This document shows, one piece after another, positions 17,705 through 64,000 of a DNA stretch of 64,000 nt (positions are counted from its first letter, which is position 1; each line of letters starts with the position of its first letter). The stretch spans positions 1 to 64,000 of the forward strand of contig NZ_JXBW01000007.1 of the NCBI RefSeq assembly GCF_001447355.1, read 5' to 3'. This stretch comes from Alicyclobacillus tolerans. Lineage in GTDB: Bacteria > Bacillota > Bacilli > Alicyclobacillales > Alicyclobacillaceae. The position numbers were made by a program, and so were the translations under genes. The notes under the pieces were generated by a model. The model was given only the letters and a program-made list of their open reading frames with translations, did no database searches and was not told the DNA's origin.

Positions 17705-18004
17705 TTACCGCGTGCTTTCCTTCAACTTGTTGCCTGGCTTAAATGCAGGAACGGTAGACGCCGGGATTTCAATGACTTCACCAGTCTGCGGATTCCGGCC
17801 GGAACGCGCGGCGCGCGAACGAGTTTCGAATGTGCCGAAACCGATGACCTGCACCTTTTCCCCTGCAGCCAGAGCTTCCTCCTTTTCCCCTGCAGCCAGA
17901 GCTTCCTCAATGGTGTCGAAGACGCTATTGACAGCCAATTCGGCGTCTTTCTTCTTCAGACCGGTCTTCTCGGCCACCTTGTTTATCAGTTCCATCTTAT
18001 TCAC
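17705..18004 (-). CDS. hup: DNA-binding protein HU with a 9-residue internal duplication
   Basis: The nucleoid protein HU is normally 90-92 residues; this one has 99. The fold is otherwise canonical: [26 protein letters not shown], and the DNA-inserting arm [15 protein letters not shown] ending in VPAFKPG. The extra length is an exact repeat of EEALAAGEK (33-41 and 42-50), encoded by a perfect 27-bp tandem repeat. It falls where helix 2 ends and strand 1 begins. GTG 18004 follows AAGGGG and gives the usual MNK start. hup lies between mazG and rqcP. Confidence 0.96.
17855..17908. repeat. Perfect 27-bp in-frame tandem duplication in hup
   Basis: Units 17855-17881 and 17882-17908 are identical (plus-strand CTTTTCCCCTG... 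ending GAGCTTCCTC). One neighbouring base also matches. Each unit encodes EEALAAGEK, so the reading frame of HU is kept. Confidence 0.95.
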
Positions 18005-62724: not shown

Positions 62725-64000
62725 GTGAGTCGACCGGGAACGTCCAGCCTCGCCCGCGGAGCCTCTCTCTATGTGATTTGTGTAGCCCTGGCCAAAGTGT
62801 TAGGGCTTGTCTGGATCATTCCGGTAACGGCCATCATTGGTCAGACCGGGAACGGCATCTACGGCAATGCGTACGCCATTTACAATATTCTTCAGCAGTT
62901 GGCGACAGCCGGCTTCCCACTGGCCATGGGAAAGCTGATCAGCGAACGGCGCGCCAACGGGGAACGGCCGGTTGTGGAACACATCTATCGCGTGACGATG
63001 AGATCACTATTGGTCTTTAGCGTCTGCGCGTTCCTCATCATGTGGTTCTCTCTCTATGTGATTTGTGTAGCCCTGGCCAAAGTGTTAGGGCTTGTCTGGA
63101 TCATTCCGGTAACGGCCATCATTGGTCAGACCGGGAACGGCATCTACGGCAATGCGTACGCCATTTACAATATTCTTCAGCAGTTGGCGACAGCCGGCTT
63201 CCCACTGGCCATGGGAAAGCTGATCAGCGAACGGCGCGCCAACGGGGAACGGCCGGTTGTGGAACACATCTATCGCGTGACGATGAGATCACTATTGGTC
63301 TTTAGCGTCTGCGCGTTCCTCATCATGTGGTTTGGCGCACCCTTGTTCGCTCATGTCATTTCGCTAAAAAGCGGCCAGGCGTCCATCGTGCAAAATGTGC
63401 CATCGATTCGAGCAGTATCGTTGATGCTACTCGTCGTTCCCGCGATGAGCGGTCTACGAGGCTACCTGCAGGGATTTCAAAAATTAGAAGGACCCGCGTA
63501 CTCACAGACATTCGAACAACTTTTTCGCGTCATCGCGATGGTGGTCGGGGCATATCTCGTTGTCGACGTCTGGCACCGCGATCGCGCTGTTGATGGCGCT
63601 GCGGCTGCCACGTTTGGCGGATTTGTGGGGGGCGTCGCCGGGCTTTTGTTGCTGATCGGCTTTGCTTGGAAGTTGCGGCGCAAGGAACGTGCTTTTGGCT
63701 ATGAGGACAGCCCGTTTCGCGATAGGCAAATTCTCCGGATGGTGTATCGACTGGCGCTACCAGTCAGCCTTGGCGGCCTCGTCGTACCCATTGCAAATCT
63801 CGTAGACTCTTGGACGGTTACCAATTTGCTTCAGGCAACTGGGCAAGGTTATTTGCAAGCAGTGGCGAATTACGGCATTCTGACGCGGCAAGCTATGTAT
63901 CTCGTCATGTTGCCGATGGCGTTCGCCTACGCCATCGGCGTCTCTGTGTTGCCAGCTGTATCGGCTGCCCGAGCGAGACGCAGCCATCAGGAACTACAGA
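62725..64000 (+). CDS. MurJ/SpoVB-family lipid flippase with internal duplication (partial)
   Basis: A MOP-superfamily polysaccharide/lipid II flippase running off the right edge; 425 residues are visible. GTG 62725 follows GGAGGTGG at about 7 nt, and a TATAAT lies at 62696-62701. MSRPGTSSLARGASLYVICV starts helix 1; later GLRGYLQGFQ, ALPVSLGGLVVPIANLVDS and VANYGILTRQAMYLVMLPMAFAYAIGVSVLP are typical of SpoVB/MurJ-like proteins. Residues 14-108 are repeated exactly at 109-203 because of a 285-bp tandem duplication. This adds the first two to three helices a second time. The frame stays open; function may be lost or altered. Confidence 0.88.
   Translation, partial: MSRPGTSSLARGASLYVICVALAKVLGLVWIIPVTAIIGQTGNGIYGNAYAIYNILQQLATAGFPLAMGKLISERRANGERPVVEHIYRVTMRSLLVFSVCAFLIMWFSLYVICVALAKVLGLVWIIPVTAIIGQTGNGIYGNAYAIYNILQQLATAGFPLAMGKLISERRANGERPVVEHIYRVTMRSLLVFSVCAFLIMWFGAPLFAHVISLKSGQASIVQNVPSIRAVSLMLLVVPAMSGLRGYLQGFQKLEGPAYSQTFEQLFRVIAMVVGAYLVVDVWHRDRAVDGAAAATFGGFVGGVAGLLLLIGFAWKLRRKERAFGYEDSPFRDRQILRMVYRLALPVSLGGLVVPIANLVDSWTVTNLLQATGQGYLQAVANYGILTRQAMYLVMLPMAFAYAIGVSVLPAVSAARARRSHQELQ
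62763..63332. repeat. Perfect 285-bp in-frame tandem duplication in the flippase gene
   Basis: Units 62763-63047 and 63048-63332 are identical over all 285 bp and directly adjacent. The first mismatches are at the outer borders (62762 versus 63047, and 63048 versus 63333). 285 is 95 codons, so the frame is kept. Confidence 0.95.

Follow-up and report, generated by a model that had tools for sequence, protein, structure and literature searches.

A predicted flippase gene in a draft Alicyclobacillus genome carries the same 285 bp twice, head to tail, and we asked whether the second copy belongs to the organism or was made in assembly. The window (the whole 64,000-bp stretch of DNA that was analysed) corresponds to positions 1-64000 of contig C53 in a 2.81-Mb draft of 55 contigs. 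The source organism is a heat- and acid-loving soil Alicyclobacillus, and the draft belongs to this genus, close to A. hesperidum. A. hesperidum DSM 12489 (record NZ_FNOJ01000006.1) was the nearest relative compared and was used as the reference. The DNA around the flippase unit was about 96-97% identical to this strain.

An exact in-frame repeat in a predicted flippase gene

As assembled, the gene comprised 657 codons and ran from a GTG start past the end of the window (Table 1). It scored above the cut-off for Polysacc_synt (PF01943), and the locus matched MurJ (PF03023) with 54.3 bits (cut-off 27.4). The equivalog cut-off of the SpoVB profile TIGR02900 (372.3 bits) was reached neither by the two-copy protein (215.6 bits) nor by the one-copy protein (187.1 bits), and neither protein reached that of the MurJ profile TIGR01695 (235.55 bits; 40.8 and 46.9 bits, respectively). 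The matches to both profiles spanned most of the length of the one-copy protein. When the one-copy protein was modelled with AF2 (pLDDT 83, pTM 0.80), the 50 Foldseek matches listed included MurJ, MATE and WzxE structures, and the best of these 50 were MurJ (7wax, TM-score 0.75 by query). The Pfam matches, the NCBIfam matches below cut-off and the MurJ fold match together point to a SpoVB/MurJ-like MOP flippase, and the gene is predicted to be one at the superfamily level, where the flippase call of a preliminary description of this DNA also holds. Because the scores lay under both NCBIfam equivalog cut-offs, the protein is to be read as a family relative, with neither SpoVB nor MurJ demonstrated. 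It shares the MOP fold with the known SpoVB/MurJ-like flippases but scores below the two equivalog cut-offs (187 versus 372 and 47 versus 236 bits).

The two copies of the 285-bp unit were 100% identical. The repeat search, TRF and direct string comparison agreed on this and on the exact coordinates, which confirmed the two adjacent, base-identical and in-frame copies that had been described earlier. The unit length is 3 x 95, and the reading frame was open across both copies. A chance origin of an exact repeat of this length is excluded. The flanks of the copies were those found in DSM 12489, and there was no N at the junction between the copies. Since the match stopped at the bases flanking the copies on either side, the junction has no microhomology.

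We further compared both copies with the single copy of DSM 12489. The results showed four differences, all common to both copies, and no change private to either copy, so that one event or artefact after the split from DSM 12489 is enough to account for the repeat. An older duplication with later homogenisation of the copies was also considered, and is not needed for the same reason.

Table 1. Positions of the flippase gene, its repeated unit and the other tandem duplications of the draft. Plain numbers are positions in the window; C53 and C4 are contigs of the draft.
Feature	Position	Strand	Remarks
SpoVB/MurJ-like MOP flippase gene (predicted), as assembled	62725..64000, on to C53:64698	+	GTG start at 62725; ORF, Pfam/NCBIfam profiles, fold match
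Flippase copy 1, 285-bp unit	62763..63047	+	In frame; repeat search, TRF, string comparison; gap in 27 aligned orthologs; either copy may count as extra
Flippase copy 2, 285-bp unit	63048..63332	+	In frame, identical to copy 1; repeat search, TRF, string comparison
Junction of copies 1 and 2	63038..63062	+	No microhomology; sequence present in this genome only, of 15 genus genomes searched
27-bp tandem duplication in HU gene (17705-18004)	17854..17908	-	9 codons, EEALAAGEK twice, in frame
315-bp tandem duplication	C53:153402-154031		3' end of gnd-like gene (named from translation) repeated behind the intact end
235-bp duplication	C53:140036-140514		Upstream of MIP-family (glycerol-facilitator-like) gene
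165-bp duplication	C4:10280-10628		Splits SBP_bac_5 binding protein
277-bp duplication	C4:12286-12841		Shifts LacI-family regulator
371-bp duplication	C4:18264-18918		Splits MFS transporter

Copy number in related genomes

A homologue of the flippase was present in all 61 genomes searched, the draft itself counted. The comparison with the orthologous gene of close relatives, which the preliminary description had proposed, gave a single copy throughout. All 14 other genus genomes compared, one per species, were single-copy for the 285-bp unit. The gene had 562 codons in DSM 12489 and 561-564 codons across these 14 genomes, versus 657 in the draft, with ortholog lengths read at 29 loci in all. 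In an alignment of 27 orthologs (12 of them from the genus, with the near-duplicates L012 and L014 left out), the 95-residue block was a gap in every one of the 27. The junction sequence was absent, at up to 2 mismatches, from the other 14 of the 15 genus genomes searched. An apparent second two-copy case in A. sendaiensis, with an open frame of 655, was rejected; this frame is long because it is open upstream only, and the protein has one copy.

The preliminary description had also suggested that the locus may toggle by recombination, and switching of single cells between the one-copy and the two-copy state would turn the flippase on and off. It is established that recombination can, in principle, readily collapse a direct repeat of this kind, exact over 285 bp. 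However, such a contingency switch presupposes that the duplication is real, the ends of the unit carry no short repeat from which the duplication could be regenerated, and the 14 other genus genomes all had the single copy. The toggle thus gained no support, and we consider it extremely unlikely.

In the same alignment, an observation was made just past the window, at C53:64093-64095, where the flippase has Arg (CGG) in the motif NEARFG. DSM 12489 has Leu (CTG) at this position and the other aligned genus orthologs have Leu or Ile. The Arg codon is possibly a base error.

Helices encoded by the repeated unit

The 285-bp unit encodes residues 14-108 of the one-copy protein, which take in part of model helix 6-61, helix 64-77 and most of helix 81-117. 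This agrees with the earlier statement that the first two to three helices are carried twice. For the 657-residue protein, AF2 built copy 2 into the fold, mostly at high confidence. Taken in blocks of ten, the pLDDT of copy 1 was about 30-62, and helix 3 of copy 1 was continuous with helix 1 of copy 2, forming one 76-residue helix. The low confidence of copy 1 arises partly because the alignment has no other sequence in that block, and the two-copy model is no proof of a loss of function. Simple hydropathy and positive-inside counts gave 12 and 13 helices, with charge nearly even. The altered topology that had been expected of the transporter found no support, as the model folds copy 2, with low confidence for copy 1.

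We considered what a real duplication would mean for this protein. If the sequenced clone carried a real and very recent tandem duplication, it would make the 657-residue protein, in which an extra N-terminal helical block is fused without a polar loop, and this protein would probably be partly or wholly non-functional. A damaged flippase could be tolerated if other MOP flippases of the genome cover for it; the draft has two further MurJ-family matches, at C1 and C55, which could do so. The open frame, the lack of private errors and the lack of N at the junction are likewise what a real duplication would give, and if it were true the locus would be a test case for how a MOP transporter copes with extra helices in odd number. 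There is also precedent, as short-junction tandem duplications that revert and that join genes in frame are documented in bacteria by the report on Staphylococcus aureus sigH, where the duplication is described as reversible, fused in frame and verified by sequencing (PMC3486894). However, the sigH units described for two clones in that report were 1210 and 1888 bp long and had flanking direct repeats of 8 and 7 bp, whereas the assembled flippase unit has no flanking repeat or junction microhomology.

A real duplication could also be read as a metastable in-frame allele of a cell- or spore-envelope flippase, with an extra three-helix block before an intact transporter, whose loss by recombination would act as a natural on/off switch. 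We regard this reading as very unlikely.

Further tandem duplications in the draft

Besides the 285-bp repeat, the scanned 1.11 Mb of the draft contained five large tandem duplications (165, ~235, 277, 315, and 371 bp), and each of these stretches was single in DSM 12489. The self-scan for tandem pairs covered 1,113 kb of the draft (40%), 750 kb of DSM 12489 and 400 kb of the single-contig relative G009. In the draft it returned periods of 285 bp (100% identity), 315 bp (99.4%), 277 bp (99.3%), 165 bp (95.7%), and 235 bp (93.0%). Under fixed limits (at least 93% identity and at least 150 bp, thresholds picked after the data had been seen), there were five pairs in the draft versus none in the 750 kb of DSM 12489 and 400 kb of G009, and the probability of finding none at the rate of the draft was 0.006. 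The self-scan of DSM 12489 showed a single pair, old and with a period of 102 (89%), and that of G009 showed three pairs of 85-92%. A looser earlier scan showed pairs of 92% and 83% on contig C9 of the draft and one of 84% in DSM 12489.

The draft was also compared directly with DSM 12489 over ~579 kb (the sum of alignment lengths, cut at 85% identity). This comparison showed five duplications specific to the draft (165, ~236, 277, 285, and 371 bp) and none specific to DSM 12489 (sign test p = 0.06). The excess over the controls is small, which counts against an artefact. The 315-bp duplication was missed by the pairwise scan because the DNA there is ~80-83% alike, under the 85% cut.

Three of the duplications (165, 277, and 371 bp) lay within 9 kb of contig C4, and each cut or shifted a gene that is intact in DSM 12489. 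The SBP_bac_5 protein has 552 aa in DSM 12489 versus 283 + 289 aa in the draft, and the MFS transporter has 502 aa versus 408 + 204 aa. The LacI-family regulator was shifted by a copy of 277 bp, which is not a multiple of 3. Four of the large duplications lie within genes, and the frame is kept in just one of them, the 285-bp duplication, which is about the chance expectation. Taken for the 285-bp site by itself, a kept frame has a chance of 1 in 3 and counts against an artefact.

Error-like changes at the duplicated sites

Both copies were compared with DSM 12489 at each large site and changes private to one copy were counted. There were 7 at the 165-bp site, 16 and one three-way column at the 235-bp site (14 in copy 1 and two in copy 2), 2 at the 277-bp site, 2 at the 315-bp site (one on either side of the junction), and 17 at the 371-bp site. 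The private changes at these five sites comprised 13 transitions and 31 transversions (n = 44), where random errors are expected at 1:2. In contrast, the divergence between the draft and DSM 12489 in the DNA flanking the flippase on the right comprised 314 transitions and 140 transversions (Fisher p = 4e-7 versus 13:31). When 8 ambiguous columns at the junctions of the 165- and 235-bp sites were left out, the ratio was 12:24 (p = 3e-5). The half of the unit on the side of the junction held 31 of the 44 private changes (p = 0.01), or 23 of 36 (p = 0.13) without the ambiguous columns. The private changes at the five sites look like random errors.

At the 371-bp site, the two copies are separated by a 117-bp stretch of the unit's own sequence in inverted orientation (95.7% identity), which produces a perfect 110-bp palindrome centred at C4:18642. 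Long palindromes are unstable, which makes it difficult to regard this one as genuine bacterial DNA.

These signatures bear on whether the flippase duplication is real. With no private errors and an unbroken frame, the 285-bp site could be a genuine duplication that happens to lie in a faulty draft. However, the other duplications of similar size in this draft show signs of error, three of the five breaking genes, and a real duplication in the sequenced clone is therefore unlikely.

Origin of the second copy

Because the draft holds several other doubled stretches with signs of assembly error, the doubling in the flippase is most likely not real biology, and we conclude that the second 285-bp copy is very probably a false duplication made in assembly. 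Two overlapping stretches, either contig ends or gap-filling extensions, would both have spanned the same 285 bp, and would have been placed one after the other without merging, which would leave the second copy. On this account the true gene would be single-copy, and its product a SpoVB/MurJ-like flippase of the ordinary kind with 562 residues, like those of the relatives. Since the 285-bp site itself has no private errors and keeps the frame, we infer its shared origin from the company of the other duplications; the exact assembly step is likewise an inference. The preliminary description had left two options, a very recent event and an artefact; this fork was right, and the evidence favours the artefact through the five other draft-specific duplications, their error-like changes and the three genes broken by them.

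False duplications of the homotype kind, as described for vertebrate assemblies (Ko et al. 2022, PMC9516828), are under-collapsed copies with errors that are misread as gains of genes or exons. Read depth, gaps and discordant pairs are named as criteria in that report, whereas here a bacterial draft was judged from its assembled sequence. The extra flippase copy was absent from close relatives, and other such copies occurred in the draft and not in the scanned parts of DSM 12489 and G009. In contrast, errors in the extra copy at the site itself numbered 0 versus 44 elsewhere. Private errors are not strictly required of a false duplication, as a clean overlap leaves none. The clustering of the lengths at ~165-371 bp and the lack of junction homology lean towards an artefact but are not proof of one.

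Assemblers normally collapse, and do not expand, an exact repeat longer than a read, and this counts against an artefact. We also compared 37 of the 55 contig starts and 14 of the 55 contig ends and found no unmerged overlap of neighbouring ends among them, only eight repeat-like matches of 30-352 bp with 90-97% identity. This result is against the simplest artefact model.

The draft thus appears to hold several false tandem duplications, which leave a fused flippase gene and broken regulator, transporter and binding-protein genes. Such duplications can pass for gene innovation or for pseudogenes.

Small tandem duplications

Smaller tandem pairs had periods of 13-51 bp in the draft and 12-14 bp in the scanned part of DSM 12489, with a 14-bp pair in both. 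One HU gene was found in the genome, and it carried a 27-bp duplication (Table 1) that is possibly the same kind of error. Like the flippase duplication it is in frame, which counts against an artefact. The HU protein has 99 aa here versus 90 aa, with a single unit, in DSM 12489.
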